Shown here: piece by piece, positions 8,113-31,024 of the stretch
Layout: every line of letters begins with the position of its first letter
Numbering within the stretch: position 1 is the stretch's first letter
DNA from: Planctomycetaceae bacterium
GTDB taxonomy: Bacteria; Planctomycetota; Phycisphaerae; Phycisphaerales; UBA1924
Assembly (NCBI GenBank): GCA_027487735.1
Contig: JAIYDA010000059.1
Coordinates: 1-64,000, forward strand
Reading direction: 5' to 3'
Length of the DNA stretch: 64,000 nt
Position numbers and translations under genes: made by a program
Notes under the pieces: model-generated
Told to the model about the DNA's origin: nothing
Database searches by the model: none
The model's input: the letters and a program-made list of their open reading frames with translations, nothing else

Positions 8113-8174
8113 CTCGCCAGCTTCGCGGCAGGCTTGCGTTTGCCCGGAGCATTCAACATGTAAAGGAGTTTTCC

Positions 8175-8615: not shown

Positions 8616-8618
8616 TCT

Positions 8619-13073: not shown

Positions 13074-13835
13074 ATGACCACGAGCGACACGAATCATCGA
13101 CCTTCCCCCTCCAGCCCGCCGCTCATCCAGTGCCGCCGCCTGACCAAGACCTACAAGAAGGGTGACAACACCATCACCCCGCTGCAGGAACTCGACCTCG
13201 ACGTGCCCGCGGGCGACTTCCTCGCGCTCATGGGCCCCTCGGGCAGCGGCAAGACCACGCTCCTCAACCTCATCGCGGGAATCGACCGTCCCAGCGGCGG
13301 CGAGCTCATCATCGGTGGCACCAACATCGCGTCGCTCTCGCGGAGCAAACTCGCCGACTGGCGGAGCACGCACGTGGGCTACGTCTTCCAGCTCTACAAC
13401 CTCGTGCCGGTGCTGACGGCCTACGAGAACGTCGAACTGCCCCTGCTGCTGCACCGGCTCTCGGCCAAGGACCGCCACGAGAAGGTCCAGACCGCGCTGC
13501 AGCTCGTCGGCATCGCCGATCGGTACGACCACTACCCGCGTCAACTCTCGGGCGGCCAGGAGCAGCGGGTCGCCATCGCCCGGGCCATCGTCACCGACCC
13601 CACCATCATCGTCGGCGACGAGCCGACCGGTGACCTCGACCAAGAGTCCGCCGCCGCCATCATGGACCTCATGACGCGGCTCTGCGACGACCTCGGCAAG
13701 ACCCTGATCCTCGTGACCCACGACGCCAAGAGCGCCGCCTATGCCAAGCGGACGCTGCACCTTGAGAAGGGCCGACTGGTCGAAGCCCAGACCCTCACCG
13801 CCCGCCGCGCGGCGCACCAGTTGCAGGAGTCGTAA
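13074..13835 (+). CDS. ABC transporter ATP-binding protein (LolD/MacB type)
   Basis: 253 residues, standard for the MacB/LolD ATPase family. Walker A is GPSGSGKTT (residues 54-62), the signature is LSGGQEQRVAIARA (about 156-169), and Walker B with the catalytic Glu is IIVGDEPTGDLD (about 177-188). The switch His lies in LVTHDAKSA. It powers the two permeases encoded directly downstream; the first begins 3 bp after its stop. The C-terminal tail is short. Together with the adaptor upstream it forms a MacAB- or DevABC-like exporter, here placed in a metal-resistance island. The substrate is unknown. Confidence 0.92.
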   Translation: MTTSDTNHRPSPSSPPLIQCRRLTKTYKKGDNTITPLQELDLDVPAGDFLALMGPSGSGKTTLLNLIAGIDRPSGGELIIGGTNIASLSRSKLADWRSTHVGYVFQLYNLVPVLTAYENVELPLLLHRLSAKDRHEKVQTALQLVGIADRYDHYPRQLSGGQEQRVAIARAIVTDPTIIVGDEPTGDLDQESAAAIMDLMTRLCDDLGKTLILVTHDAKSAAYAKRTLHLEKGRLVEAQTLTARRAAHQLQES

Positions 13836-13838
13836 CCC

Positions 13839-15002: not shown

Positions 15003-15013
15003 GAAAGGACTCC

Positions 15014-16276: not shown

Positions 16277-16351
16277 TGGTGGACGCGTGCGCTGTCGCGG
16301 CGTGTGCCGCGCGGCGAAGAGAGTGCTGCAAGCTGTTCAAGGAGTTTCGAC

Positions 16352-17320
16352 GTGACAACCATGATGACGAGGATGACGAGTGTGGTCCGCACGATGACGC
16401 TGGCGGCGGCGCTGCTGGGCGGCGCGGCGGTGGTGATGCTGCCGCAGGCCGCGCAGGCGCAGATCAAGAGCGCGGGTGACGTGAAGACGCTGCTCATGAC
16501 GGAGTTGCCCGCGAATGCGCTGGAGATTTCTGCGGCGATGAAGTCGGCCAAGGTGGGCGAGACCATCACCGTGCGCGGGAACGTGGCGATGTCGAAGGAT
16601 GCGTTCGTCGAGAACCGCGCGATGTTCACGCTGGTGGACGAGACGACCCGCAAGGGGTGCTGCCCGCCCAGCGACAAACTGCCCGACACCGCGTGCGACA
16701 TTCCCGCCGAAGGCCGGGCCACGGTGCAGATTGTCGATGCCAACGGCAAGCCAGCGCGATTCGGTCTCAGCGGCGAGCACGGGCTCAAGCCCGGCGCGGA
16801 AGTCTTCGTCACGGGCAAGGTCGAGACCGCCAACGGGACCGACGCGCTCGTGCTGACCGCCACGTCCATACATGTTCCCAAGGCCGCGCTGCCCACGGGC
16901 CTGTTTGTCAGCACGCAGCCGGAGAACGCCAAGGATGTTTCAGAAGTTCGCAAGGCGGCGACGGCTCCCAAGGTCGGCGAGGAGGTCGTGCTGCGTGGGC
17001 GCATTGGCGGTAGCAAGGAGCCGTTCGTCGCGGGGCGCGCCGTGCTCACCCTCATAGGACGCGGGTTGAAGGCCTGCAACGAGAACCCCGACGACAAGTG
17101 CTCGAAGCCCTGGGACTACTGCTGCGAGACCAATGCGGACATCCTGGCGAACTCGGTGACGGTGCAGATCGTGGACGCCAAAGGCCAGATTCTGCGGACG
17201 GAAATGAAGGGTCGTCGCGGACTGAAGGAATTGTCTGAGGTCGTCGTCGTCGGCAAGGTCGCCGCCTCCGACGGCAAGTCGCTGGTGGTCAATGCGACAG
17301 CGATGTACGTGCATCAGTAA
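16352..17320 (+). CDS. secreted protein with a duplicated OB-like domain
   Basis: 322 residues from a GTG at 16352, chosen because AAGGAG lies 7 nt upstream. A signal peptide with an AQAQ-type cleavage site covers about the first 35 residues. The mature protein contains the same domain twice (about 50-170 and 205-320). Each has VGExxxxRGxxxxSKxxFVxxRAxxTL, a Cys-rich loop (CCPPSD; CNENPDDKCSKPWDYCC), VTVQIVDAxG and a closing beta-hairpin ending in a TA(T/M) strand. The pattern fits an OB-like barrel with a disulfide- or metal-binding loop. It is the last gene of the ABC exporter block. Function unknown; it could be the extracytoplasmic substrate binder. Confidence 0.6.
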   Translation: MTTMMTRMTSVVRTMTLAAALLGGAAVVMLPQAAQAQIKSAGDVKTLLMTELPANALEISAAMKSAKVGETITVRGNVAMSKDAFVENRAMFTLVDETTRKGCCPPSDKLPDTACDIPAEGRATVQIVDANGKPARFGLSGEHGLKPGAEVFVTGKVETANGTDALVLTATSIHVPKAALPTGLFVSTQPENAKDVSEVRKAATAPKVGEEVVLRGRIGGSKEPFVAGRAVLTLIGRGLKACNENPDDKCSKPWDYCCETNADILANSVTVQIVDAKGQILRTEMKGRRGLKELSEVVVVGKVAASDGKSLVVNATAMYVHQ

Positions 17321-17640
17321 CCTGAGTTGTCATGCCATAAGCGAGCGTGGCGGCCGCGATTGGCTTCCACCCACGTCCCGGCAAAGAGATGCGCCGCCTT
17401 CACGAACGACGGGGCGTCGGGATTCGACTTCGACTCGCCGACCGTCGGGTGAAAGTACGCCGGCGGGTAGAGCGCTACGTCGTCGTACTGCGTAACCACG
17501 CGGGCGAGCAGCCCGGGCCCAGCTTGATCGCCGACGTACCGGCGCTCGAAAAACGAACGTTCTGCCCTGTAGCCACGGCGTGGCAGTGCCAGGACGAGTC
17601 GATGGCTCTCAGGCCGTGTGTTTAGTTCTGCCCGTCGAAC
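17314..17640 (-). pseudogene. C-terminal remnant of a glycosyltransferase-like gene
   Basis: On the - strand an open frame runs through this interval without a good start and ends at 17314. It reads AGPGLLARVV, then VALYPPAYFHP, then AAHLFAGTW, the order seen at the C-terminus of DXD-type (GT32-like) sugar transferases. The N-terminal catalytic part is missing and the frame runs into the promoter of the + strand metal operon. I read it as a gene cut off when the metal block arrived. Family assignment rests on motif order only. Confidence 0.4.
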
Positions 17641-17653
17641 TTGGTCTCGACTG

Positions 17654-17694
17654 TTGACGTACTCCCTGAGAGACCGATATACTCCCCCACAGTA
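17654..17694 (+). promoter_or_regulatory. promoter overlapping a CsoR/RcnR-like operator
   Basis: TTGACG (17654-17659), an 18-nt spacer and TATACT (17678-17683) form a good sigma-70-type promoter. The -10 box overlaps TACT-CCCCCAC-AGTA (17680-17694), an inverted repeat with a seven-base C/G tract like the operators of CsoR/RcnR repressors and like the site at 27417. The A of the next gene's ATG is the last base of this operator, so the transcript would be almost leaderless. Confidence 0.6.
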
Positions 17695-18167
17695 TGCTCT
17701 TCCGCAGCTCTCAATTCCGGACCTTCATCGCCCTGCTCATGGCGGTGGTGGTGCCGTTCTGCTGCTGCAACTTCCATGCGTGGGTGAGCGCGTGTGCTTC
17801 CTGTGTCCCCGCTGCCGTGGTTGACGGGGACCGTCACGTCACGGCGAGCGAACACGACCACCACGGGTGTCACCACTCGGGCACAGACGCCGCTCGCTCC
17901 AGTGGCGATCACCACGAAACCCCGACGTCGCCTGGTGATGGCTCCGACCCGCACGACTGCACCTGCGGCAAGGACCAAGCGAAAATGATGTCGGGCGAGA
18001 AGCCGACCATCGATTTCGCTCTAGCGGTTCTCGTTGCGACGCTCAACTGGATTACGTCGAATTGGACTTCTGTCGAGCCTGCCCACACCTTCGTCAGTGG
18101 CGAAGTCTGGGCATGTGCTCGACCGCCGACCAGCCTGCTGCGCTTGCACTGCGCGCTCATCGTGTAG
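17694..18167 (+). CDS. small exported Cys/His-rich CzcI-like protein, paralogue 3
   Basis: 157 residues. An export segment (FIALLMAVVVPF) runs into CCC, then CASC, a His-rich stretch (EHDHHGCHHSG, GDHHETP), DPHDCTCGKDQ, a hydrophobic stretch (about 107-122) and the C-terminal PPTSLLRLHCALIV shared with the protein at 10857. The ATG overlaps a repressor-type operator. It is the first gene of the second RND block. The Cys/His content suggests Cu or Zn binding in the periplasm (inference); the promoter site argues for copper control. Confidence 0.65.
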   Translation: MLFRSSQFRTFIALLMAVVVPFCCCNFHAWVSACASCVPAAVVDGDRHVTASEHDHHGCHHSGTDAARSSGDHHETPTSPGDGSDPHDCTCGKDQAKMMSGEKPTIDFALAVLVATLNWITSNWTSVEPAHTFVSGEVWACARPPTSLLRLHCALIV

Positions 18168-18306
18168 CACTGCAATCCATGACTAGCCGTTGCCGAGCGA
18201 GAATCGACATGCGGCCGGTCTCGGTGCGCCCATGACCCTGTTCGCACTTCGACGCGTTAGGGCATCCCCCACATCTCGGTTACCCATCCTCTCATGGAGA
18301 TCGCTC

Positions 18307-19680
18307 ATGATCCGCTCACGCGCGGCTCTTGGTGCGAGCGCCCTCGCGCTCGCGACCGCCGCCATTCTGATTCCTGTGTACGCCCACGAAGGTCACGGCA
18401 AGCCCACGGGTGCGACGTTTGATCCGAACGCACCCAAACGGGTCTCTGAAGCCACCGCGCTCGCCATTGGCCTTGAGACCGCCGAGGTGGACTTTGGCAA
18501 CGTCGAGGACGTTGTTCGGCTGACCGGCATGGTCCGCGCTCAGCCCGGATCGCTTGCTGCGGTCTCGGCGACTTACGCGGGCGTGGTCCGAGCGATCGAA
18601 GCGCAGGTCGGTGATCGCGTGCGGAAGGGCGATTTGATCGCCGAAGTCGAGTCCCCCGAACTTGCCCGGGCGCTGTTTGATGTCAGGCGATTGGAGTCGG
18701 AGTCGGAGCGTCTGAGCGCTGAGCAGAAGCGAGCGACCGCGCAGATCGCCTCGCTTGAGATCGAATCACCTGCCGCTGAGCTGAGCGCTTCGCTCGCCGA
18801 GGCAGAAGTGGATCGGCTGAAGTCCGCGGGCGAGAGCGTGTCGGCGAACTTGCTGGCACAACGCCGGGCCGAGGCGATCAGGTTGCGTGCGGACGCATCA
18901 CTCCGCAAGGTTGCGCTCGAACAAGCCAGGACGGAGGCCGTTTCGCTGCAGCGTCAGCTCGACGCGACGCGGGCATCGGCCGAAGCACTGCGTGCCACGC
19001 TGCCATCAGACTCAGCAAACCCAGCCGCGGGTGTCATCCGGCTGGTCGCGCCGCTGGACGGTGTGGTCGTGAGCCGAACGGGAGTCATCGGCGAGGGCGT
19101 CGCCGCCGGAAGTCCAATCGTGAGCATTGGCGACTTCTCCACGGTCCAGATCGAGGGCGAACTCCCCGAGAGTCTGCTTTCCCGTGTGAAGGGCGTGCCC
19201 GGGGCGAAGGTGCGGATTCGGCGTGGGATGGCAGTTCCCAGTGACGTGGTGGCGGAGGGCGTGGTGCGGTTCCTGAGTCCGGTGATCGATGCGACCAAGC
19301 GTACCGCGCATGTCATCGTGGATGTGGACAACCCGCAGGGACTGTTGCGGCACGGCCAGTTCGTGGATTTGAACGTGGTGATCTCAACCAACGACAGCGC
19401 CGTAGTGGTGCCAGCGACGGCTGTCGTCAAGGAAGGCCCGCTGCAATACGTCTTTGTGCGGGAAGGCAAGGGCGAGAACGTCGTGTTCAAGAAGCGAGAC
19501 GTGGCCGTGGGCGTGCGCGACGACCGCGTCGTTGAGATCACGAGCGGCCTCGTCCCCGGTGATGTCGTTGCGGTTGGAGGTGCGTTCAGTCTGTCGCAGC
19601 TCCGTGGCTTTGTGCCCGGTGCTCCCGAACCCGTCGCTGAGCCTGCCAAGCCCGGCGACGGCCACGGCCACTCGCACTGA
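18307..19680 (+). CDS. CusB/CzcB-like periplasmic adaptor
   Basis: 457 residues from the ATG at 18307, with GGAG 9 nt upstream. A signal peptide (about 1-22, ending VYAHEGHG) exposes a His motif at the mature N-terminus. The sequence then follows the RND adaptor plan: first barrel half (about 50-110), a coiled-coil hairpin rich in Ala/Glu/Arg (about 115-220), second half with LVAPLDGVVVSRTG, a beta-barrel and a membrane-proximal domain, with a C-terminal HGHSH. It is 48 bp upstream of the pump gene. Unlike the first set, the channel gene is not adjacent; it lies at the end of the block (25992). Confidence 0.88.
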   Translation: MIRSRAALGASALALATAAILIPVYAHEGHGKPTGATFDPNAPKRVSEATALAIGLETAEVDFGNVEDVVRLTGMVRAQPGSLAAVSATYAGVVRAIEAQVGDRVRKGDLIAEVESPELARALFDVRRLESESERLSAEQKRATAQIASLEIESPAAELSASLAEAEVDRLKSAGESVSANLLAQRRAEAIRLRADASLRKVALEQARTEAVSLQRQLDATRASAEALRATLPSDSANPAAGVIRLVAPLDGVVVSRTGVIGEGVAAGSPIVSIGDFSTVQIEGELPESLLSRVKGVPGAKVRIRRGMAVPSDVVAEGVVRFLSPVIDATKRTAHVIVDVDNPQGLLRHGQFVDLNVVISTNDSAVVVPATAVVKEGPLQYVFVREGKGENVVFKKRDVAVGVRDDRVVEITSGLVPGDVVAVGGAFSLSQLRGFVPGAPEPVAEPAKPGDGHGHSH

Positions 19681-19728
19681 TCAGTCCGCCCGCGTCTCAC
19701 GCACAACAGCAATCCGAGGAACCTCCCT

Positions 19729-22700
19729 GTGCTCAACTGGATCATCCGATCATCCTTGAACAACCGCGTGCTGGTGCTGATCGCCGCGTTGCTCGTCTCC
19801 GTTTACGGAATGTACGTGACGCTGCGGACGCCCACGGACGTGCTGCCCGACCTCAACCGGCCGGTTGTGACGATCATGACCGAGGCCGCCGGGCTTGCGC
19901 CCGAGGAGGTCGAGGCCCAGGTCACGTACAACATTGAGACCGCCGTCAACGGCTCTCCGGGCGTCGAGCGAGTCCGGAGCGTTTCCTCGCTCGGGCTCTC
20001 GATCGTGTTCGTCGAGTTCCAGTGGGGCACGGACCTCAAGTACAACCGCCAAGTTGTCAGCGAGCGGATGGGCACCATCTCCGAGAAACTGCCGCCTGGC
20101 GTCGTACCGGTCATGACGCCCGCGACCAGCATCATGGGCGAAATCGCCCTGATCAGCGTCTCGAGTAAGACGCTCTCCCCGATGGAGGTGCGCACGGTCG
20201 CCGAGTTCACGCTCCGTCCAGCCATTCTGTCGATCCCCGGAATCGCCCAGGTCACGGCGATGGGCGGCGACCTCAAGCAGTTTCGTGTTCAAGTCGATCC
20301 GGACAAGCTTCGGCTCTACGACCTGACCATCGAGGATGTCGAGCGAGCACTCGCCGCCGCCAACCAGAACACTGGGGGTGGCTTTGTCGTCAGCGGCGCG
20401 CAGGAACTCGTGGTTCGGAACCTCGGCCGCGTGCAGAACGCCGATGACATCGCCATGTCGCTGGTCGCCACAAGGCCCGGCGATCACGCCAGCCCTCCGC
20501 GGGCAGTCCTCGTGCGCGACGTCGCGGAGGTCATCGAAGCGGGTCCCACGATCAAGCGCGGCGATGGCTCCGACAACGGCACGCCCGCCGTCATCATGGC
20601 GATTCAGAAACAGCCTGGTGCGGACACCATCACGCTTACGCGGTCGCTCGATCGAACGTTGGAGCAGATTCGCCCGACCCTTCCCGCCGGCATCGACATC
20701 AACGCCGACGTGTTCCGGCAGGAGCACTTCATCAACTCGGCCATCGGGAATGTCGTGGAGGCGCTGCGCGACGGTGCGATCCTGGTCGTCATCGTCCTGA
20801 TCCTGTTCCTCATGAACGTGCGGACGACCATCGTCACGCTCACGGCGCTCCCGCTCTCGATCATCACGACGTTCCTGGTCTTCCACTGGCTTGGCTTGAG
20901 CGTCAACACCATGACGCTGGGCGGGCTGGCGGTCGCTATCGGCGAGCTTGTTGACGACGCGGTTGTTGACGTGGAAAACGTCTACCGACGGCTGGGGGAG
21001 AACCGCCGCGCTGCATCGCCCAAGCCGATCGCACAGGTTGTTTTCGACGCTTCCAGCGAAATCCGCAACCCGATCATTCTGGGCACGGTCATCGTCAACC
21101 TTGTGTTCCTGCCCACGTTCTTCCTCCCAGGCATCGAGGGACGACTGTTCGCCCCGCTCGCCACGGCGTACATCGTGAGCATCTTCGCGTCGCTGCTGGT
21201 GGCGCTCACCGTCACTCCCGTTCTGGCGTACTACCTGCTCCCGGGCATCAAACGCATGGAGCACGGCAAGGACGGCCCGCTGCTGCGCGCCTGCAAGTGG
21301 CTGGCGCTCAAGTCATACTCGGTCTCGATGCCACGCCCGGTCGCGGTGCTGGGCACGCTGGGCGCGCTGGTCGTGGCGGCGCTGTTCATGGTCACGCGGC
21401 TGGGCTCGGAGTTTCTGCCGCCCTTCAACGAGGGCACCGCAGTCGTCTCCTTCATGCAGCAACCGGGTATCTCGCTGGAGGAGTCCAACAAGCTCGGCAC
21501 CAAGGCCGAGGAGATGATCCTGTCCATCCCTCAAGTCAAGAGCACGGCGCGCCGCACCGGACGCGCCGAGCAGGACGAGCACGCGCTGGGTGTCAACGCC
21601 AGCGAGATCGAGGTGGACTTCTGGACCAAGGAGGAAGCGAAGAACCCTGACAAGCACACGACGCCCGCCGGTCGCAGGCCGCCGCCGGCCAAGGACATCC
21701 TTCCCCGCGAGCAGGTCTTCACGATGATCGAGGAGAAGCTCGCGGCGTTCCCCGGCGTGGCGACGGGCATCGGCCAGCCCATCAGCCACCGCATCGAGCA
21801 CTTGCTCTCGGGGGTTCGTGCCCAGGTTGCCATCAAGATCTTCGGCGACGACCTCGGCACGCTCCGCACGCTCGCGGACCAGACCAAGGCGGCGATGGAG
21901 GGCATCCCCGGCGTCGCCGACCTGCAGGTCGAGCAGCAGGTGCTGGTGCCGCAACTGCACATCAGTGTCAACCGCGCGGCGGCGGCCCGCGTCGGCTTCA
22001 CGCCGCAGTCGCTCACCGATGCGATGGAGACCGCCACCAAGGGCAAGGTCGTGGGCCAGGTGCTCGACGGCCTGAAGGTCTTCGACATCACGCTCACACT
22101 CGATGACCATCACCGGACCGATCCAACTGCGCTGGGGCTGGTGCGGCTCGTCTCGCCCACCGGGGCGATCGTGCTCGTGCAGGACGTTGCCGAGATCGTC
22201 GAGAAACTCGGCCCCAATGAGGTCCAGCGCGAGAGCCTGCGACGCCGCATCGTCGTCTCGGCCAACGTCCGCGGACGCGACCTGGGCTCGACGGTCGAAG
22301 AGATCAAGAAGTCCATCGCGATCGACGTGACGCTGCCCCAGGGCTACACGATCCAGTACGGCGGGCTGTACGAGGCGCAGCAGGAGTCCACGCGGCTGCT
22401 GCTCGCCCTGGGCACGGGCTCGCTCATCGCCATCTTCGTCATCCTCTTCACCCACTACCGCTCGGGCATGGTCGCGGCCCAGATCATGCTCAACGTGCCC
22501 TTCGCGCTCATCGGCAGCGTGACGGCGCTCTTGATCACCCGCGAGCCCTTCAGCGTGGCCTCGCTGGTGGGCTTCATCAGCCTCACCGGCATCGCCACCC
22601 GCAACGGTGTGCTGATGGTCAGCCACTACATCCATCTGATGACCGAGGAACGCCAGCCCTGGAGCAAGGAACTCATCATCCGGGGCAGCCAGGAGCGTGT

Positions 22701-23085
22701 CGCCCCGGTGCTCATGACCGCCGTCACGGCGGGGCTGGGCCTGATCCCGCTGGTGCTCAGCAAGGGCGAGCCGGGTAAGGAGATCCTGTACCCGGTCGCG
22801 GTCGTCATCCTGGGCGGCCTCATCACCAGCACATTGCTCGACTTCTTCGTCACGCCGTCGATCTTCTATCGGTTCGGCAAGGCGGCCGCGGAACGGTTGA
22901 CCAAGGAGCACATCGAGAAGCACGGAGCACTCCCACAAAGCCATTCCGATCCAACCACCGCTCCGATTTCAGCCAAGTCCACCGTCGCCATTCCAGCAGG
23001 GGCGAGCGATCGTGGAAACGCATCCGCCTCTGCGTTACCCGAATCCGGCCGCCCTGCGGCCCCAGATCAAGGAGTTCAGCAATGA
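19729..23085 (+). CDS. RND heavy-metal efflux pump (CusA/CzcA family)
   Basis: 1118 residues from a GTG start. Full-length HME-type RND pump with two sets of six membrane helices and two large periplasmic loops. The TM4 motif is AVAIGELVDDAVVDVEN (about residue 402), differing both from CzcA (DFGxxxDGA) and from CusA (AIGxMVDAA), so the metal is not settled by the motif. The surrounding YHS proteins and CsoR-type site favour Cu/Ag. A C-terminal extension of about 55 residues is rich in Ala, Pro and Ser. Its stop overlaps the next start (ATGA), indicating coupled translation. Confidence 0.92.
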   Translation: MLNWIIRSSLNNRVLVLIAALLVSVYGMYVTLRTPTDVLPDLNRPVVTIMTEAAGLAPEEVEAQVTYNIETAVNGSPGVERVRSVSSLGLSIVFVEFQWGTDLKYNRQVVSERMGTISEKLPPGVVPVMTPATSIMGEIALISVSSKTLSPMEVRTVAEFTLRPAILSIPGIAQVTAMGGDLKQFRVQVDPDKLRLYDLTIEDVERALAAANQNTGGGFVVSGAQELVVRNLGRVQNADDIAMSLVATRPGDHASPPRAVLVRDVAEVIEAGPTIKRGDGSDNGTPAVIMAIQKQPGADTITLTRSLDRTLEQIRPTLPAGIDINADVFRQEHFINSAIGNVVEALRDGAILVVIVLILFLMNVRTTIVTLTALPLSIITTFLVFHWLGLSVNTMTLGGLAVAIGELVDDAVVDVENVYRRLGENRRAASPKPIAQVVFDASSEIRNPIILGTVIVNLVFLPTFFLPGIEGRLFAPLATAYIVSIFASLLVALTVTPVLAYYLLPGIKRMEHGKDGPLLRACKWLALKSYSVSMPRPVAVLGTLGALVVAALFMVTRLGSEFLPPFNEGTAVVSFMQQPGISLEESNKLGTKAEEMILSIPQVKSTARRTGRAEQDEHALGVNASEIEVDFWTKEEAKNPDKHTTPAGRRPPPAKDILPREQVFTMIEEKLAAFPGVATGIGQPISHRIEHLLSGVRAQVAIKIFGDDLGTLRTLADQTKAAMEGIPGVADLQVEQQVLVPQLHISVNRAAAARVGFTPQSLTDAMETATKGKVVGQVLDGLKVFDITLTLDDHHRTDPTALGLVRLVSPTGAIVLVQDVAEIVEKLGPNEVQRESLRRRIVVSANVRGRDLGSTVEEIKKSIAIDVTLPQGYTIQYGGLYEAQQESTRLLLALGTGSLIAIFVILFTHYRSGMVAAQIMLNVPFALIGSVTALLITREPFSVASLVGFISLTGIATRNGVLMVSHYIHLMTEERQPWSKELIIRGSQERVAPVLMTAVTAGLGLIPLVLSKGEPGKEILYPVAVVILGGLITSTLLDFFVTPSIFYRFGKAAAERLTKEHIEKHGALPQSHSDPTTAPISAKSTVAIPAGASDRGNASASALPESGRPAAPDQGVQQ

Positions 23086-25028
23086 ATCGTCCACGTCTTT
23101 CGATCCTGTCCCTTTTGTTGGTGTCCGGGCTCGCGCTCTCGACGGCGCCGAGCGCAGTCGCCCAGCACAGTCACGGCTCGGACGCTCAGCCCGGCCACAA
23201 GGATGACGGGCACAGTCACGGCGAGGTCGCCAAGGCCGGCTCGTTCGCCGATGCGTCCCAGCGCATCGCCGCCGATGTGAAGGCGATGGATTCGGCCCTC
23301 AACCCTTCATCCGGGGGCGGGTCGGTCGCGGGCGTCTCGGACAAGGCCAACGCCGTCGCCACCCTCGCCAAGACGCTGGGGGCGCTCGCGCTCGCCAAGG
23401 AGAGCGGCGTGCCTCGTGAGAAGGTCAAGGAGATCAACGCCGCCAGCAAGGAACTCGCCGAGGCGGCGGACAACCTGCACAACATCGCCGATGCGGGCGA
23501 CATCGCCAAGAGCAAGGCCGCGTTCGCGCCGGTGAAGGCGGCGGCGGCCAAGGTCGCGGCCCTCGCGCCGGCGATGGCCGACGGACACGACCACGCTCAT
23601 GGCGCGGAGGCCGCGCCGGTCACGCACTCGGTCGCGGTCGCCGCTGAAGGCGGCAAGCCCATCGAGGCGGGCAAGGCCGCGGCGATGGTCTTTACGCTCG
23701 AGGATGCCAAGGGCGAGGCGGTCAAGGACCTGGAGACGGTCCACGAGAAGGTGCTGCACCTGCTCATCGTCAGCAAGGACCTCTCGTGGTTCGCGCACGA
23801 ACACCCGACGCGCCGCGCGGACGGCGCGTTCACGCTGCCCATCACCTTCCCGGCGGGGGGCGAGTACACGTTGTACTTTGACTTCACGCCCAAGGGTTCG
23901 CCTCAACAGGTCGTGCCGGTGAAGGTCACGGCGACCGGGACGCCCAAGGCCGCCGTGCCGCTGACGGTGGATGCCGACAAGCCCAAGACCATCGACGGGT
24001 TCACGGTCGCACTGGACACCGAGGGTGCGATCAAGGCGGGCGGCAACGCCCACATGTCCTTCACGATCACCAAGGACGGCAAGCCCGTGACCTCGCTCCG
24101 CCCGTACCTGGGCGCGATGGGGCACCTGGTCATCATCAGCCAGGACGGCACGCAGTTCGTGCATGCCCATCCGCATGAGGGCGGGGAGCACGGCGCAGGC
24201 GGCCACGATGCTCATGGAGCGGGCGGCGGGCACGATGACGGCGCGAAGAAGGACGACCACACCGGGGGCGCGGGCCACGGCCACGGTGCGCCGAAGGCGA
24301 CGGTCCAGACCGGCGGGCCCAAGGTGGACTTTGAGGCCCACTTCAAGGAGCCGGGTACCTACAAGGCGTGGGGCCAGTTCAACGTCGGCACGGCGGAGAA
24401 AGAGCAGGTTCTGACCGTCCCCTTCACCTTCACGGTCGAGAGGGGCGCGATGGCTGCAGCGCCCGTGAACAAGGTCTGCCCGATGACCAGCGACACCGTC
24501 AACGCCTTTCACACCCGCGACTTCAAGGGGCAGACGGTCGGATTTTGTGACGGGGACTGCGCTCTGCGCTGGGACGGGCTCAAGGACGAGGAACGGATGG
24601 CCAAACTGGTCGCGGCGATCGCGGGCTCAACGCCCAAGACGCCGCACGGCGCGCAGCCCGGCGCGGGTCACGCAGGCTCGGACTCCGCAGGCGGCCACGA
24701 CGACATGCCCGCCGGCGTCGATGCCGCCGAGGAGCGGGCGCTCTACCTGACGCCCGGCGGCCTCTACACCGAAGCCGACATCAAGGCAAACGGCTCGATG
24801 ACGGCGAGCGAGAAGTACAAAGGCAAGATGGCCAAGCACGACATGAAGCCCAAGCCTGGGGACAAGGTGTGCCCCATCACGATGACCAAGGCCAACCCCA
24901 AGTTCACCTGGATCATCGGTGGCAAGACTTACGAGTTCTGCTGCCCTCCATGCATCGATGAGTACATGCTGCTAGCGAAAACCTCGCCCAAGGAAGTGCT
25001 CGATCCCAGCGAGTATGTGAAGAAGTGA
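23082..25028 (+). CDS. large exported protein with two YHS-type metal modules
   Basis: 648 residues with a signal peptide (about 1-27) and His-rich mature start (HSHGSDAQPGHKDDGHSHG). Next come a helical Ala/Lys-rich part (about 45-165), two beta-sandwich-like segments (about 180-290 and 300-460) separated by a long His/Gly insert (near 365-410), then two YHS-like modules: KVCPM with FCDGDC (about 462-495) and KVCPITM with FCCPPC (about 593-622). YHS modules bind Cu or other soft metals in copper-resistance proteins. It overlaps the pump gene by 4 bp. It probably works in the periplasm as a metal sink or donor to the RND complex. Its architecture is unusual. Confidence 0.7.
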   Translation: MNRPRLSILSLLLVSGLALSTAPSAVAQHSHGSDAQPGHKDDGHSHGEVAKAGSFADASQRIAADVKAMDSALNPSSGGGSVAGVSDKANAVATLAKTLGALALAKESGVPREKVKEINAASKELAEAADNLHNIADAGDIAKSKAAFAPVKAAAAKVAALAPAMADGHDHAHGAEAAPVTHSVAVAAEGGKPIEAGKAAAMVFTLEDAKGEAVKDLETVHEKVLHLLIVSKDLSWFAHEHPTRRADGAFTLPITFPAGGEYTLYFDFTPKGSPQQVVPVKVTATGTPKAAVPLTVDADKPKTIDGFTVALDTEGAIKAGGNAHMSFTITKDGKPVTSLRPYLGAMGHLVIISQDGTQFVHAHPHEGGEHGAGGHDAHGAGGGHDDGAKKDDHTGGAGHGHGAPKATVQTGGPKVDFEAHFKEPGTYKAWGQFNVGTAEKEQVLTVPFTFTVERGAMAAAPVNKVCPMTSDTVNAFHTRDFKGQTVGFCDGDCALRWDGLKDEERMAKLVAAIAGSTPKTPHGAQPGAGHAGSDSAGGHDDMPAGVDAAEERALYLTPGGLYTEADIKANGSMTASEKYKGKMAKHDMKPKPGDKVCPITMTKANPKFTWIIGGKTYEFCCPPCIDEYMLLAKTSPKEVLDPSEYVKK

Positions 25029-25142
25029 TCCTCTCCCCCGCGCCGCGCGAGAGTGGGCGCGGAGGGCTTGTGCGGGTCGCTACCGCCGACCCGTCAGTCG
25101 TTCGTTCCATCCCTGTGTTCCAATGCTCCCGGAGTTACGCAC

Positions 25143-25928
25143 ATGAAACCGTCTAATGCCATGCTCTCCCGCTCGCTCGCCGCGCTCCTGCTTGGGGCGG
25201 GCATCGTCACCGCTGCCGCGTGGGCGGCACAACCCGAGCAGCCCGCCGTGTCCGCCCAAGCACAGCCCGCTTCCAAACCCATCAACAAGCTCTGTCCCAT
25301 CATGGAGAATGAAGTGGATGCGGAGGCACCCACGCGCCAGTTCAAGGGCGTCACCATCGGGTTCTGCTGCCCGGGCTGCGACCGCAAGTGGGACCGCAAG
25401 TCCGACGAGGCCAAGATGGCGCTCCTGACCAAGATGTCCCCCGAATCCGTCGCCGCGATCAACGCGGCCAGCAGCCCGGCTTTGAAGATCGCCCGCGATT
25501 ACCTCGAGGCGTGCGGCAAGGCGGACGTGAAGGCTCTCGACGCGATTTTCCTCGACAAGGGCCGCGCGACGGTGAGTGAGAACGCGGGAGATGAGGGCAC
25601 ATGGGAGGCTTACCGAGACCACCACCTGATGCCAGAGCTCATTGAGATGCCCGGGTTCGTGATGACCGTGGTGAAGGAGGATGTCCAGACCTTCGGAACG
25701 ACCTCGATCGTCCGCCAGATCGGCTCGTTCACGCTGCCCGACCCCAACCACAAGGAACTCACGAAGAAGTACCTCGCGGCGGTGACCTATGTCATCGTGG
25801 ATGACAACGGCACGCCCAAGATCGCCCACCTGCATTGGTCAAGCCGGGCGGAGAAGAAGCCCGCGGCGGATGCACCCGCGACGCCCGCGAGCGGGCACGG
25901 AGCCGGCGGCGGCCACGAGCACAAGTAA
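25143..25928 (+). CDS. exported YHS-domain protein with NTF2-like domain
   Basis: 261 residues from the ATG at 25143, with CGGAG upstream. A signal peptide covers about 1-28. A YHS-like module follows (KLCPIM at about 49-54, FCCPGCDRKWD at about 74-84), then an NTF2/SnoaL-like fold (ALKIARDYLEACGKADVKAL through VTYVIVDDNGTPKIAHLHW, about 114-240), and a His-rich C-terminus (HGAGGGHEHK). It follows the larger YHS protein in the same block. The three Cys of the YHS module are intact. Periplasmic copper handling is inferred from the module and the context; the role of the NTF2-like part is unknown. Confidence 0.7.
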   Translation: MKPSNAMLSRSLAALLLGAGIVTAAAWAAQPEQPAVSAQAQPASKPINKLCPIMENEVDAEAPTRQFKGVTIGFCCPGCDRKWDRKSDEAKMALLTKMSPESVAAINAASSPALKIARDYLEACGKADVKALDAIFLDKGRATVSENAGDEGTWEAYRDHHLMPELIEMPGFVMTVVKEDVQTFGTTSIVRQIGSFTLPDPNHKELTKKYLAAVTYVIVDDNGTPKIAHLHWSSRAEKKPAADAPATPASGHGAGGGHEHK

Positions 25929-25991
25929 CACACTCACCCGTCCCGCTCCGCCGACGCGGCGTGGGCCGATTCCCGCTTGGAGACTTTCCGC

Positions 25992-27380
25992 ATGAAGCGC
26001 CAGCCGACTCGTCAGCATGTACTTGCCACCTGCACGCCCGCCACGCTTGCCCTCGCGCTCGCTCTGATCACGGGAGGGTGCGCCTCGCTCGACCCCAAAC
26101 CCGACATCAACCGCGCCGCTTCGACCGTGGCCGAGCGTTCCGGTATGACGCCGGTGTGGACCGAGCCGTGGGAGGCATCACTCACTTCCTGGGACGGACG
26201 CTCGCCTCTCATGCTCGAGCAGGCGGTGGCGATGGCGCTCCGCAACAACCGCGAGATCAGGGCTGAGGTTGAGCAGATCGCGGCGTCGCGCGCCGACCTC
26301 GTGCAGGCAGGCCTCCTGCCCAACCCCGTGCTTGGCCTGACACTGCGCTTCCCGTTTGATCCGGTGAGCGGCGGCACGCTCATCGGCGCGCAGGTCGTGC
26401 AATCGTTTACCGCCCTCTGGCTGCGTGACGGCAAGATCAAGGCGGCGGACGCCCGGCTCAACCAGACTGTGCTGGACATCTCCGACAAAGCCCTTCGACT
26501 CGTGGCCGAGGTGAAGTCCACGCACGCTCGGATAAGTTTCGGTCAACTCGCACTCGCGCTCAGCGATGAGAACCTCGCCACAATCCAGGGGTCCATCGAC
26601 TCGCTCGAAGCCCGCGTTCGCGGCGGCGAGGGGACGCTGCTTGATGTGAACCGAGCCAGGCAGCAGCTGGTCAAGGCCCAGTCCGAACGGGCCGTTGTCT
26701 TCCGCGACCTCGCCAAGGATCGCCGTCGGATGCTGGAATTGATCGGCTTTGCCAGCGAGGACGCGGAGTGGACCGCCGACGGAAGCGGTGCAGCCCTAAG
26801 CACAGCCGCGATCAACGAGTCCGCCGTCATCGCTATTACGGTGTCGCAGCGATTGGACGTTGCCGCCGCACGTTCCATCGTGGAGGCACAGTGTGCCGAC
26901 CTCTCCATCGAAGAGAAGAGCCGCATCAAGGACTTCGGGTTGGGGGCCGACTTCGAGCGAGATGTGGATGGTGCAAAGACCATCGGACCGGTGATAGAAG
27001 TCGGCATCCCGATCTTCGACACCAACGCCGCGCAGATCTCCAAGGCCGGGTCGCTCGCCCGCGCCGCCCTTGCCAGGTACGAAGCAGTCTCCCAGCGCGC
27101 CATTCGCGAAGCCCGCATCGCGTGGGTCGAACTCGATAGCGCGTCGCGGCTCGCGGAGCAGTACCGCTCCACGGTGCTGGCGATCTCAGAGCACAACCTG
27201 ACGCTCGCGGAGGCCGCGCTCAAGTCCGGGCAGGCCGATGTAACGGTGCTGCTGGACTCACAGAGGGAACTGCTCGACGCCCGGCGCACACTGAACGACC
27301 TGGAACGAGACGCGGTGCTTGCCCGAATCTCGCTGGAGGAGGCGGCGGGCGGGAGGATCCCATCGTTGCCCGCCCAATGA
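25992..27380 (+). CDS. TolC-family outer-membrane channel lipoprotein
   Basis: 462 residues from the ATG at 25992 with GGAG 10 nt upstream. The signal ends in a lipobox (LITGGC, Cys28). Two outer-membrane efflux repeats (about 75-250 and 265-450) have the long Ala/Glu/Arg helices of CusC/CzcC, including VEVGIPIFDTNAAQ, equivalent to VSTPLPIFDTGQAK in the channel at 1174. It is the last gene of the second RND block and should serve the pump at 19729. The order adaptor-pump-YHS-YHS-channel is atypical; most Cus/Czc operons begin with the channel. Confidence 0.87.
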   Translation: MKRQPTRQHVLATCTPATLALALALITGGCASLDPKPDINRAASTVAERSGMTPVWTEPWEASLTSWDGRSPLMLEQAVAMALRNNREIRAEVEQIAASRADLVQAGLLPNPVLGLTLRFPFDPVSGGTLIGAQVVQSFTALWLRDGKIKAADARLNQTVLDISDKALRLVAEVKSTHARISFGQLALALSDENLATIQGSIDSLEARVRGGEGTLLDVNRARQQLVKAQSERAVVFRDLAKDRRRMLELIGFASEDAEWTADGSGAALSTAAINESAVIAITVSQRLDVAAARSIVEAQCADLSIEEKSRIKDFGLGADFERDVDGAKTIGPVIEVGIPIFDTNAAQISKAGSLARAALARYEAVSQRAIREARIAWVELDSASRLAEQYRSTVLAISEHNLTLAEAALKSGQADVTVLLDSQRELLDARRTLNDLERDAVLARISLEEAAGGRIPSLPAQ

Positions 27381-27416
27381 ACGTGTTGTGCGAACCGGTC
27401 AAACCCGGTGGACGTA

Positions 27417-27435
27417 TATACTGGGGGGGAGTATA
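27417..27435. promoter_or_regulatory. CsoR/RcnR-type operator
   Basis: TATACT, seven G, AGTATA: an inverted repeat around a G tract that fits the TACT-G6-N-AGTA form described for RcnR-type sites. It lies 21 bp before the ATG of the HMA protein, and a CsoR-type repressor gene is the second gene downstream. The TATACT half could also serve as a -10 box. Autoregulation of the copper module by its own CsoR is the natural reading. Confidence 0.7.
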
Positions 27436-27455
27436 CTTCCACCAAGGAGATTCGC

Positions 27456-27845
27456 ATGAATACGACGACGGACATCAACAAAACCACCACGCTCCGCATC
27501 GACGGCATGACCTGCGGGCACTGCGTGCAGGCCGTGACGAAAACCCTTTCGGGCGTGCCGGGGGTGACGGTCAAGTCGGTGGCGGTGGGTTCGGCGGTGA
27601 TCGAAACCGTGGATGGTTGGGCCACGAGCAAGGCCATAAACGCGCTCGACGAGGCCGGGTATCCGGCGAAGGCGATGGGCGATGCCGCAGGCGCGGAAGC
27701 GCCGATGCCAGCCAGGAGCAGCGGCGGGTGCAGCGGCGGGGCGAATCGCGCTCAGCCGGACGGCGGGAACGCGATCCCGGGCGGCGGGTTGGCCATGCTG
27801 CAGAGTGAGAGCAGCGAGAAGACCCCTGGCGGGTGCTGCCGGTAA
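27456..27845 (+). CDS. HMA-domain metallochaperone-like protein
   Basis: 129 residues from the ATG at 27456, supported by AAGGAG. The first 75 residues form a heavy-metal-associated domain with GMTCGHC (Cys20 and Cys23), as in CopZ and MerP. No signal peptide is visible, so it should be cytoplasmic. A Gly/Ser/Ala-rich tail adds a lone Cys (SGGCSGG) and ends in GGCCR, which is longer and more Cys-rich than a normal CopZ. First gene of the copper module, directly after the operator. It probably passes Cu(I) to the ATPase at 28541 or the repressor at 27881. Confidence 0.85.
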   Translation: MNTTTDINKTTTLRIDGMTCGHCVQAVTKTLSGVPGVTVKSVAVGSAVIETVDGWATSKAINALDEAGYPAKAMGDAAGAEAPMPARSSGGCSGGANRAQPDGGNAIPGGGLAMLQSESSEKTPGGCCR

Positions 27846-27880
27846 GTGTGTGGTGAAGCATCGACAAAGGAGTGATGATC

Positions 27881-28300
27881 ATGGCCAAAGGCAAATCGAG
27901 CAAAGGTGTCTCCGAGCGTGCAGCGCTGCCTATGTTGAACGGCGCGGCGTGTGGGTGCCGGCCGGGCGCGGGTTCGGTCATCGGCCAAACCCGCGACGGC
28001 GTGGGGCCGGGCGCGCACGCGGTGAGTGTCGATGCGGCGATCAAGGCGGCGAATCTCAAGCACCTGCGCCGGATCGAGGGGCAGGTGCGCGGCATCGCGC
28101 AGATGATCGAGGAGGACCGCTACTGCGCCGACATCATCCAGCAGGCCGCGGCGGTGCAGGAGTCGCTCCGCTCGGTCGCCAAGAACCTGCTGCGGAACCA
28201 CCTCTCGCACTGCGCCGTGGCCGCCATGTGCGAAGATGGGGCCAAGCGTGACGACATGATCGAGGAACTCCTGGAATTGGTCGCCAAGGTCGCGCGATGA
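27881..28300 (+). CDS. csoR: CsoR-type Cu(I)-sensing repressor with N-terminal extension
   Basis: 139 residues from the ATG at 27881 (AAAGGAG 8 nt upstream; GTG 27872 and ATG 27875 are possible starts). The C-terminal 88 residues are a CsoR/RcnR helical domain beginning LKHLRRIEGQVRGIAQMI. The metal ligands Cys82, His107 and Cys111 have exactly the C-x24-H-x3-C spacing of Cu(I)-binding CsoR. The first 50 residues are extra: Gly/Ala-rich with Cys24 and Cys26 (CGCRPG), absent from ordinary CsoR of about 90 residues. It should bind the TACT-G7-AGTA site upstream and release it when copper binds. Confidence 0.88.
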   Translation: MAKGKSSKGVSERAALPMLNGAACGCRPGAGSVIGQTRDGVGPGAHAVSVDAAIKAANLKHLRRIEGQVRGIAQMIEEDRYCADIIQQAAAVQESLRSVAKNLLRNHLSHCAVAAMCEDGAKRDDMIEELLELVAKVAR

Positions 28301-28324
28301 ACGAACTGGAATGCGAGGTGCCCG

Positions 28325-28513
28325 ATGAGTTGCAACTGCGGATGCCATGACGACAAGCCCCCGGCGACTGGATGGCGGAGGTTCGTGCCCGTGATCGTGG
28401 GCGTGGTGGTGGTCGGAGCGCTCATCGCCGGGGCAGTGCTCAAGAAGGACGACGCGGTCAAGCCCGCGTCTCGCTCGCCAGCAGAGCGGATCACAGCAGC
28501 GACCCAACCCTGA
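28325..28513 (+). CDS. tiny membrane protein with Cys/His N-terminus
   Basis: 62 residues. It starts MSCNCGCHDDKPP, with three Cys and one His in the first eight residues, then has a single membrane helix (about 22-40, VPVIVGVVVVGALIAGAVL) and a short Ser/Ala/Arg tail. GAGGTG lies 8 nt before the ATG. It sits between the repressor and the copper ATPase. The N-terminal Cys cluster looks like a soft-metal site at the membrane face; function unknown. No family recognised. Confidence 0.6.
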   Translation: MSCNCGCHDDKPPATGWRRFVPVIVGVVVVGALIAGAVLKKDDAVKPASRSPAERITAATQP

Positions 28514-28540
28514 GCTCGGCCAAACCGACAAAGGACGACG

Positions 28541-31024
28541 ATGATGAACGCCCATGAACATCAGCGCGGCGGCGAGCCCGCATCGATGGAGACGAACGCT
28601 AAGTCGACCATCGAGCGGGCGGACATTCCGATCGAGGGGATGACATGCGCTTCGTGCGCCAATCGGATCGAGAAGCGTCTTGCCAAGCAGCCCGGCGTCT
28701 CGTCGGCGAACGTTAACTTCGCTACCAAGGTGGCGACGGTGAAGTACAACCCGGCGGCGACCGGGCCCGAGCAGCTCGCCAAGGCGGTGGACGACATCGG
28801 GTACAAGGCGATTGTGCCCGCGGCGGCCGCGGAAGAGAACCAGGCGGTGAATCCGCCGCACGGGCACAAGGGTCACGACCATGCCGCGATGATCGCGGCG
28901 CGGGGCGCGGGCTCCCACGCGGGCCACGGCGGCGCGACCGGCGATGACCACTCGGCGCACATGAACGTGGGCGAGGCCGATGTGAAGCGCGTCCTGACCA
29001 AGACCATCGTCGGGGCGAGCCTGTCGTTGCCCGTGCTGGTCATCGCCATGTCGCACGGAAAGTTCGAGATCTTCAATGTGCCTTGGATCAACTGGCTCCA
29101 GTTTGTGCTCACAACGCCGGTGATGGTGTGGTGCGGGGCCCAGTTCTTCCGTTCCGCGTGGAAGGGCGTGAGGCACCTGAGTGCGAACATGGACACGCTC
29201 GTGGCGATGGGCACCGGTGCGGCGTACTTGTATTCGCTCGCGGCAACGATCTGGCCTGGGTTCTTTGCTGGTGTGGCGGGCGGTGCATCGCACACGGCGG
29301 CGGCCGCGCACGCCGCGAGCGCTGAGACGGTTGGCATGGGCGGGATGACGATGGTGCCGGTGTACTACGAGGCCGCGGCGGTCATTATCGTGCTCATCCT
29401 GCTTGGCAAGTACTTCGAGGTCCGGGCGACCGGTCGGACAACCGCTGCGATCAAGCGGCTGATCGGCCTACAGGCCAAGACCGCCCGGGTGCTGCGCGAC
29501 GGCGTCGAACGCGATGTGCCCATCGAGGCCGTCGTCGTAGGTGACCGGCTGCTCGTCCGCCCCGGAGAGAAAGTCCCGGTGGACGGCACGGTCGAGAGCG
29601 GGCAGTCGGCGGTGGATGAATCGATGCTTACGGGCGAGAGCGTTCCGGTCGAGAAGAAGGCCGGCGACAGCGTCTTCGGCGCGACGATGAACACGACCGG
29701 CGCCCTGCGGCTGGTGGCGACGAAGGTCGGATCCGATACCGCGCTCCAGCAAATCGTGCGACTGGTCCAGGAGGCCCAGGGGAGCAAGGCGCCGATCGCC
29801 CGCTTGGCGGACAAGATCAGCGGCGTGTTCGTGCCAGTGGTCATCGCCATCGCGGTCGTGACTTTCATCGTGTGGTGGTTCGTGTCGCCGGTAGACTCGC
29901 GGCTGAGCATGGCTTTGGTGACGGCGGTCTCGGTGCTCATCATCGCGTGCCCGTGCGCCCTTGGTTTGGCCACACCCACGGCCATCATTGTCGGCACCGG
30001 CCGCGGGGCCGAGAAGGGCATCCTCATCAAAGGCGGCGAAGCGCTGGAGACCGCGCACAAGCTGACCGCGATCGTGCTCGACAAGACCGGCACCATCACG
30101 CACGGCAAGCCCGCGGTCACGGACGTGATTCCGGCTGCCGGGGCAGGCGTCGATGCAGCGGAACTGCTGCGGCTCGCCGCGTCGGCGGAGCAGCACAGCG
30201 AGCACCCGCTCGCCACTGCGATCGTCCGCGAGGCCACGGCGCATGACGCTCGGCTCGTGGAGCCATCTCAGTTCCAGGCCGTCGTCGGCCACGGCGTCGA
30301 TGCGACCGTGGATGGGAAACGGCTGCTCGTGGGTAAGGCGGCATTGCTGGAGCAACGCGGCATCGCGATCACGCTCGCGGACAAGGCGGCGGAACTGGCG
30401 TCGTTGGGCCGCACGCCAATGTTTGTCGCGATCGAGGGGCGTGAGGCCGGGATCGTGGCCGTCGCCGACACGGTGCGGGCCGAATCCAAGGACGCTATCG
30501 CAACAATGCACGGGCTGGGCCTGCGGGTGGTGATGATGACCGGCGACAACCGCCGGACCGCCGACGCGGTCGCCTCGCAGGTGGGCGTCGATCAGGTCTT
30601 CGCCGAGGTGCTGCCCAAGGACAAGGCCGACAAGGTCAGGGCGCTCCAGGCCGAGGGGCACGTCGTGGGGATGGTGGGCGACGGCATCAACGATGCACCC
30701 GCGCTGGCGCAGGCGGATGTTGGCCTTGCCGTAGGGACCGGGACCGACGTTGCGATGGAGTCGGCGGACATCACGCTCATGCGTGGAGATCTCCGCGCCG
30801 TGCCGCAGGCGATCGCCCTTTCCCACGCGACCATGCGAACGATCCGTCAGAACCTCTTCTGGGCGTTCATCTACAACGTCGTTGGAATCCCCGTCGCCGC
30901 TGGCGTCCTATTTCCGTTTACCGGTTGGCTGCTCTCGCCGATCCTCGCGAGCGCCGCGATGGCGTTCAGTAGTGTGAGCGTGGTCCTCAACAGCCTGCGG
31001 CTGCAAGTCTGGCAGAAGCTCTAG
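28541..31024 (+). CDS. copA: Cu(I)-exporting P1B-type ATPase
   Basis: 827 residues. N-terminal HMA domain with GMTCASC (residues 33-39), a linker rich in His/Gly/Ala ([17 protein letters not shown], about 107-145), then eight membrane helices. TM6 has [10 protein letters not shown] (about 470), the phosphorylation site is DKTGTITHG (about 513), SEHPLA supplies the HP motif and [16 protein letters not shown] the hinge. The last helices hold YN and [13 protein letters not shown], typical of the Cu(I)/Ag(I) subgroup. A loop between early helices carries a Met/Gly stretch (GMGGMTM). It pumps Cu(I) to the periplasm, where the RND block and YHS proteins can take over. Start is ATG 28541 or 28544. 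Confidence 0.93.

Follow-up and report, generated by a model that had tools for sequence, protein, structure and literature searches.

What two exported proteins, here named P1 and P2, do between the gene for an RND pump and the gene for an outer-membrane channel was analysed in a planctomycete window, i.e. the whole stretch of 64,000 nucleotides of DNA under study. RND metal efflux is known mostly through the proteobacterial CusF/CusCBA system, and at this locus the CusF-like operon position is occupied by fusions of other copper-related domains. The features of the locus are listed in Table 1, and relatives are designated by L numbers.

Table 1. Positions of the RND/copper cassette genes and of the P1 and P2 domains in the window
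Feature	Position	Strand	Basis or remark
Exported His/Cys-rich protein, 157 aa, cassette head	17694..18167	+	Conserved in both operon types
RND periplasmic adaptor (CusB/CzcB type)	18307..19680	+	PF16576, TIGR01730
RND heavy-metal pump (CusA/CzcA family)	19729..23085	+	TIGR00914
P1, exported multi-domain protein, 648 aa	23082..25028	+	Conserved in L001-L013, L015
P1 helical bundle, four helices, residues 55-161	23244..23564	+	AlphaFold2 pLDDT mostly 67-92
P1 beta domain 1 (YtkA-like, Ig-like), residues 180-286; candidate ligands H226, H239, H241	23619..23939	+	AlphaFold2 model; His invariant in alignment A5
P1 beta domain 2 (YtkA-like), residues 305-455; candidate ligands H348, H361, H363	23994..24446	+	YtkA PF13115; His invariant in alignment A5
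His-rich low-complexity insert in beta domain 2, residues 366-409	24177..24308	+	pLDDT <50
YHS1/TRASH-type module of P1 (C466, C489, C493)	24459..24617	+	C466-x22-C489-x3-C493
YHS2/TRASH-type module of P1 (D594, C597, C620, C621, C624)	24849..25001	+	C597-x22-C620-x3-C624
P2, exported YHS-NTF2 fusion, 261 aa	25143..25928	+	Relatives; NTF2 profile match
YHS/TRASH-type module of P2 (C51, C75, C76, C79)	25275..25412	+	C51-x23-C75-x3-C79; PF24273 TRASH E = 0.0019, below cut-off
NTF2-like (SnoaL_3/DUF4440) domain of P2	25476..25850	+	Family profile match to PDB 3bb9
TolC-type outer membrane channel	25977..27380 (probable ATG start 25992)	+	PF02321
HMA-domain protein (CopZ-like)	27408..27845	+	PF00403
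CsoR/RicR-type Cu-sensing repressor	27872..28300	+	PF02583; C85/H110/C114
CopA-type P1B ATPase	28541..31024	+	CPC, YN, M-x2-SS motifs

Gene arrangement and conservation

Both genes lie between the pump gene and the channel gene, exactly where the initial annotation had placed them, and the ATG of P1 overlaps the RND stop codon by 4 nt (ATGA). P1 begins with a signal peptide of about residues 1-28 (MNRPRLSILSLLLVSGLALSTAPSAVAQ). The start of P2 was assigned to the ATG at 25143, as supported by its signal peptide and by the relatives, and replaces the GTG at 25053 of an earlier ORF call. P1 and P2 were found with unchanged gene order in about a dozen Phycisphaerales MAGs, among which the best-segment identities were mostly 76-93% for P1 and 67-83% for P2, respectively; in most relatives the order is RND gene, P1, P2, channel gene. 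Since the P1 fusion recurs in the dozen MAGs and is also present in the chromosome-level record CP054186 (L015), an assembly or chimera artefact was rejected as its source. In L015 a gene for a Csp-like Cys-rich protein intervenes between the RND gene and P1.

Beta core of P1

The two beta domains of P1 are homologous to each other and each carries an H-x12-H-x-H motif. The YtkA model PF13115 (cut-off 25.9 bits) was matched at 28.5 bits by the P1 core alone and at 17.4 bits by whole P1. The six beta-domain His, which went unmentioned in the initial annotation, are invariant in alignment A5 across Planctomycetota, Bacteroidota, Cyanobacteria, Bacillota, Actinomycetota, haloarchaea and Legionella and are the best-conserved candidate metal ligands. 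P1 contains 32 His in total (4.9%), including the His-rich stretches noticed before; the His-rich insert is short or absent in distant relatives. The two YHS modules with beta domains described at the outset for P1 were retained, and an N-terminal helical bundle and the YtkA homology of the beta domains, both overlooked then, were added.

YtkA members are extracytoplasmic, as is P1, and two of them, CtaK and the C-terminal domain of YcnJ, aid the copper loading of the CuA site of cytochrome oxidase in B. subtilis (PMC13344008). P1 differs from the YtkA/CtaK family (PF13115, including the YcnJ C-terminal domain) in being a tandem pair with an H-x12-H-x-H motif in each member, in carrying a helical bundle and Cys modules, and in its link to RND efflux. 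A Bacteroidota 'heavy metal-binding domain-containing protein' (Hymenobacter sp. NBH84, WP_185284713.1) shares the double beta core and the same six His with P1, and its cluster likewise encodes a P-type ATPase, an RND pump, an adaptor, a TolC protein and an NTF2-like protein; in contrast to P1, it has an HMBD and no YHS or helical domain, and the NTF2-like protein is encoded by a separate gene. HMBD, a known metal-binding module, directly precedes the beta domains in P1 relatives. Beta-core relatives in several lineages adjoin genes of the copper P-type ATPase, CopZ or CsoR type, and some in Gram-positives and cyanobacteria stand beside a copper-type ATPase with no RND pump nearby; metal genes were absent from three of the eight beta-core neighbourhoods read.

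Cysteine modules of P1 and P2

The three YHS-like Cys modules previously proposed for the two exported proteins were borne out by their spacing, which is x22/x3, x22/x3 and x23/x3 in YHS1, YHS2 and the P2 module, respectively. All seven Cys of P1 fall within YHS1 and YHS2, and four of the five Cys of P2 within its module, which is 44% identical to YHS1. The TRASH pattern was taken to be C-x(about 19-22)-C-x3-C, and the P2 module is one residue longer. The modules scored 15.8-18.8 bits with PF24273 (cut-off 27), and the best relative scored 17.2 bits with PF04945 (YHS, cut-off 30.3); because these scores are below the Pfam cut-offs, the modules were named YHS/TRASH-type and were not counted as family members. 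AlphaFold2 was run on full-length P1 and P2 with shallow alignments, and pLDDT over the YHS regions was <60.

YHS2 additionally has an Asp at position -3 (D594), which gives the four-ligand pattern D-x2-C-x22-C-x3-C; this pattern and its spacing match those reported for a YHS domain that responds to Cu, found in the adenylyl cyclase of M. phlei, with D178, C181, C204 and C208 as its ligands (PMC4626032). With the TRASH/YHS modules of Cu-ATPases, CopR/CopM and this cyclase, those of P1 and P2 share the C-x22-C-x3-C spacing (one residue longer in P2), with the Asp position added in YHS2, but they are below the Pfam cut-offs, exported, and fused to YtkA-like or NTF2-like domains.

Two of the three YHS1 Cys are lost in L003, L006, L008, L011 and L012, and the P1 relatives L014 and L016 have no YHS modules; YHS is therefore not essential to the core function, and the emphasis of the initial annotation on the modules as the essence of the system was not supported. 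In L130, P2 carries a C-terminal module of the YHS1 type, and YHS2 is a gene of its own in L122 and L123. In other planctomycetes the beta part and the YHS2 part are separate genes within one metal locus, and that of L122 also contains CopA and an adaptor gene; the two genes sharing this locus provide a Rosetta-stone link. The parts of P1 and P2 undergo modular gain, loss and fusion. The architectures had been called unfamiliar, and indeed, in the samples that were searched, no fused example came from beyond the class Phycisphaerae; the domain combinations look lineage-specific. P1 and P2 are known copper-related domains newly combined and no new kind of system. A literature search on YHS, planctomycetes and copper returned nothing.

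NTF2-like domain of P2

The NTF2 part of the proposed YHS-NTF2 fusion was backed by the family profile A6, which matched PDB 3bb9 across the domain with E = 2.3e-25. SnoaL_3 was detected in 15 of 18 family members; P2 itself scored 17.4 bits, below the cut-off of 22, which its relatives pass. The full-length AlphaFold2 model of P2, made with a shallow alignment, had a mean pLDDT of 38. Residues Y157, H161, H231, S233 and R235 are conserved across the family, and a second clade of the fusion comprises L113-L117 and L121. Stand-alone relatives of the domain occur in copper clusters of Proteobacteria and Bacteroidota: nine of the ten neighbourhoods read were copper clusters, as against none of five control stretches located across from them on the respective plasmids. 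These stand-alone exported proteins (DUF4440/SnoaL_3) and 3bb9 have a domain homologous to that of P2 with similar DHHL and HxHWSSR motifs, to which P2 adds a YHS module at the N-terminus and a tail rich in His.

RND pump and copper genes of the cassette

The pump matched TIGR00914 (CusA/CzcA) at 777 bits (cut-off 701). The Met triad of CusA is M573/M623/M672, as located on the CusA sequence, and the aligned residues of the pump are S/A/H; a CusA-like Cu(I) pump was not supported. With the triad missing, Cu(I) need not pass through the pump, which may serve another metal. Copper is nevertheless the likeliest metal, because CsoR and a Cu-type CopA belong to the cassette; CsoR, HMA and CopA genes are found in the same cassette in L001, L002, L006 and L153. 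The claim that metal-binding-type exported proteins are tied to an RND efflux operon was supported, with CsoR, CopA and the homologous parts in copper clusters of other phyla making the context one of copper.

The CusF domain (PF11604) was matched neither in the genome (90.6% complete) nor in P1 or P2, and the multicopper-oxidase domain (PF07732) was not found in the genome (90.6% complete), both searches being positive in control genomes; the idea that P1 and P2 stand in for CusF/PcoA-type parts is therefore consistent with the data. In E. coli, CusF hands Cu to CusB (PMC6235853). Like CusF with CusCBA, the present locus joins RND, adaptor and channel genes in one operon with an exported accessory of metal-binding type; it differs from that system in the pump without the CusA Met triad and in the genome without a detected CusF domain.

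Discussion

From the observed domain content, conservation, operon linkage and co-occurrence with copper genes, P1 and P2 probably (at about 0.6) act in the periplasm as copper-handling accessories to an RND efflux cassette under copper control, and would capture copper and hand it to the pump. P1 would be a multi-site copper carrier or buffer built on its pair of YtkA-like domains, each of which presents three His on a hairpin; fused onto this pair are the helical bundle, the loop rich in His and either one or two TRASH/YHS modules. P1 would pick up copper in the periplasm, whether this enters from outside or is brought out of the cytoplasm by CopA, and would hand it on to the adaptor and to the RND pump, to which P1 is translationally coupled. 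P2 may be a second, smaller exported copper-binding partner with one TRASH/YHS module and an NTF2-like domain. Copper binding at the candidate His and Cys sites of P1 and P2, the oxidation state of the copper and its hand-over to the pump are what we infer from this arrangement.

Pump-independent action of P1 and P2 as periplasmic copper sponges (for sequestration or buffering), sharing only the regulation of the pump, is a real if minor possibility. The many potential sites and the His-rich loops would suit it, as would the beta-core relatives beside copper-type ATPases away from any RND pump and the Csp-like gene of L015, but the translational coupling and the fixed place between pump and channel genes that most relatives show argue against it. 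A role of P1, P2 and the RND unit in handling Zn, Co, Ni or Cd, with CsoR and CopA as an adjoining copper unit, is decidedly unlikely: the pump without the Met triad, the match of the adaptor to the divalent-metal exporter model IhpB (below cut-off) and the fit of Zn and Ni to His-rich sites speak for such a metal, whereas the CsoR/HMA/CopA genes within the cassette of four relatives and the repeated finding of homologous parts in copper clusters speak for copper.

It is highly improbable that the NTF2-like domain of P2 is an enzyme, acting for example on an organic ligand or an oxidised product under copper stress with the YHS module as copper sensor or gate. The five conserved polar residues could line a pocket, and a YHS domain does gate an adenylyl cyclase upon Cu (PMC4626032), but the neighbourhoods point to no substrate or reaction, and NTF2-like domains are described as having both catalytic and non-catalytic versions (PMC3924330).

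Beyond the accessory role of P1 and P2, it might be speculated, tentatively and against the odds, that they form a dedicated periplasmic relay in which copper moves among the three-His, TRASH Cys and NTF2-pocket sites into the triad-less pump, and that a copper-binding or copper-responsive family has gone unrecognised in the exported NTF2-like proteins which several phyla have in their copper clusters. The fusions hint at working partnerships among the separate 'hypothetical' and 'NTF2 family' genes of copper clusters, including clusters on Xanthomonas and Staphylococcus plasmids. If the six invariant His do bind copper, a single binding study would be enough to assign a function to a family present in both bacteria and archaea.

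Rejected profile and structural matches

Single-sequence PDB searches with P1 and with P2 gave weak matches only. Assignment of the P1 bundle to the cytochrome b562 type was rejected, its Z of 11.2 reflecting a common arrangement and lying below the trust level for bundles, and the weak Pfam matches of P1 to Cytochrom_C_2 and of P2 to Cas9_a were dismissed as chance. 'Zcp' (9mhl, 9mhm, 9mhn), a metal-bound protein of two domains, was treated as a lead only: it ranked high in the Foldseek comparison with the P1 model (E about 1e-5 to 7e-5), but the matches around it were domains of complement, filamin and antibody type and TM was about 0.1-0.3, its sequence was not matched by the beta-core profile, it was absent among the 50 VIA matches listed, and no paper on it was found in the literature search. 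The best PDB sequence matches of the beta-core profile were the Ig domains of human LIR-1 (E = 0.0045), which were taken as shared Ig features.

Organization of the copper cassette

The 3.67-Mb genome carrying the window has its close relatives among Phycisphaerales/Planctomycetota MAGs. The exported proteins P1 (648 residues) and P2 (261 residues) are encoded within a copper/RND cassette, in which the stop codon of the pump gene is overlapped by the ATG of P1. The start of P2 was assigned to the position where its signal peptide and conservation begin; the mechanical ORF start at 25053 was rejected, as both are found only from 25143.

Genes of the copper/RND cassette in the window
Feature	Position	Strand	Remark
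His/Cys-rich exported protein	17694-18167	+	Cassette head; without Pfam match
RND adaptor	18307	+	
RND pump	19729	+	
P1	23082	+	
P2	25143	+	
TolC-type channel	25977	+	
HMA protein	27408	+	
CsoR	27872	+	
CopA	28541	+	

The small head protein has a conserved C-terminus and heads both RND operon types in Phycisphaerales. Upstream of the cassette (13074-17320) are an ABC-type ATPase, two FtsX-like permeases and an exported two-repeat protein (16304); a similar set sits directly downstream of P1 in locus L128 (8942-13891).

Domains of P1

The signal peptide was assigned by eye to residues 1-28. In the predicted structure, residues 55-161 formed four helices and residues 180-286 and 305-455 two Ig-like beta domains, with pLDDT mostly 75-93; confidence was low for the remainder, including the His-rich loop (366-409) and both cysteine modules. 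Searches with beta-1 queries matched beta-2 regions, showing that the beta domains are related to each other. Few residues were invariant in the core alignment over Planctomycetota, Bacteroidota, Cyanobacteria, Bacillota, Actinomycetota, haloarchaea and Legionella, among them H226, H239, H241 and H348, H361, H363, an H-x12-H-x-H pattern found once in each beta domain. Each trio lies on one hairpin of the predicted model (strands 225-231/237-240 and 348-353/359-362, respectively), and its histidines would, from the strand register, face one side. Scanned by itself, the core exceeded the YtkA cut-off; in B. subtilis, genetic evidence gives YtkA-type domains a part in loading cytochrome oxidase with copper outside the cytoplasm (PMC13344008). 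The beta core was also matched by 98 Staphylococcus plasmid records. A relative annotated as hypothetical (L133:4920-5576, Staphylococcus plasmid) is encoded downstream of copZ and a gene for a P-type ATPase.

Seven of seven P1 cysteines and four of five P2 cysteines fall in C-x22/23-C-x3-C modules, which bears out the three modules reported in the initial annotation. Their identity as YHS domains held in part: the cysteine spacing and an Asp three residues ahead of the first Cys in YHS2 agree with it, and the scores were under the Pfam cut-offs, for which reason the modules are named YHS/TRASH-type. The YHS domain of an M. phlei cyclase, with a measured Cu2+ response, has the same ligand pattern as YHS2 (PMC4626032). 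The last two cysteines of YHS1 are replaced by His and Ser in five relatives (L003, L006, L008, L011 and L012), YHS2 ligands are complete in every relative having YHS2, and neither module is present in L014 and L016. Since the beta-domain histidines are kept in all 11 sequences compared and the YHS modules are degenerate or absent in some, the beta pair is taken as the constant core of P1.

An HMBD heavy-metal module lies between the helical and beta parts in L010, L014 and L016; none was found in P1 of the window. L127 and L128 encode helix-beta-beta-YHS2 without YHS1, and in L130 a YHS1 module at the P2 C-terminus gives YHS-NTF2-YHS. The beta-beta part (as a lipoprotein) and the YHS2 part are encoded by two different genes in L122, at one locus with CopA and an RND adaptor, and in L123 a YHS2 gene accompanies CopA, adaptor and RND genes. 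The existence of both separate and fused forms argues that the parts work together.

P2 and its NTF2-like relatives

The NTF2-like domain claimed for P2 is supported by a match of the family profile to 3bb9 (E = 2.3e-25) and by SnoaL_3 hits for 15 of the 18 family members. A second YHS-NTF2 clade (L113-L117 and L121; 41-48% identity in the NTF2 part) occurs in another RND operon, with an HMBD-type adaptor in L113 and L116 and HMA and CsoR genes near some loci; the fusion is therefore regarded as an established architecture. In a small, non-random plasmid set, stand-alone NTF2 relatives lay among copper-resistance genes in nine of ten neighbourhoods (one did not), and copper genes were found in none of five control regions taken from the opposite side of those plasmids. 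At plasmid loci L070-L079, copper-resistance clusters repeatedly include exported proteins of NTF2-like type (DUF4440/SnoaL_3), the hosts being Xanthomonas, sphingomonads, Caulobacter, Massilia, Hymenobacter, Runella and Pontibacter. No function for them was found in the literature searched.

Every domain of P1 and P2 is known or has named relatives. Among the genomes sampled, the fusions of a double YtkA-like core with TRASH-type modules and of a TRASH-type module with NTF2 occurred only in the class Phycisphaerae, and no record in the plasmid search covered most of P1 or P2; the novelty, as judged from these comparisons, is thus limited to combinations of known domains.

Metal and proposed role

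CsoR carries C/H/C and CopA carries CPC, YN and M-x2-SS, which we take to be CsoR and P1B-1 ATPase motifs, respectively. These motifs, and the copper genes found around members of both protein families, make copper the likeliest metal; another metal is improbable. P1 and P2 would serve the pump as a periplasmic copper carrier/buffer pair, with putative binding and transfer (probability about 0.6). The initial annotation had them possibly replacing CusF- and PcoA-type parts; a search of the genome carrying the window gave no CusF and no Cu-oxidase_3 domain. The pump has S/A/H at the positions of the CusA Met triad, which speaks against a simple Cus analogue. That P1 and P2 act as a sponge independent of the pump is a distinctly less favoured reading, and an enzymatic P2 is very unlikely.

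Distribution of the cassette

The main alignment of the window with L001 was a single block (17634-31000, 89%) covering the whole cassette, with flanks unmatched on both sides; the cassette is possibly a mobile copper island. No P1 match was found in a genome of the same genus (G362), and a genome from another order of the class (G738) has the cassette, with the P2 segment 81% identical. The combination of scattered occurrence and high identity is suggestive of horizontal transfer.

The chromosome carrying L015 (CP054186) has elsewhere a second, truncated P1 copy with a pump fragment (L017). By eye, a Cys-rich protein between the RND gene and P1 (L015:6981-7418, minus strand) resembles four-helix copper storage (Csp) proteins, and an ORF at 8014-8811 is heme-oxygenase-like.
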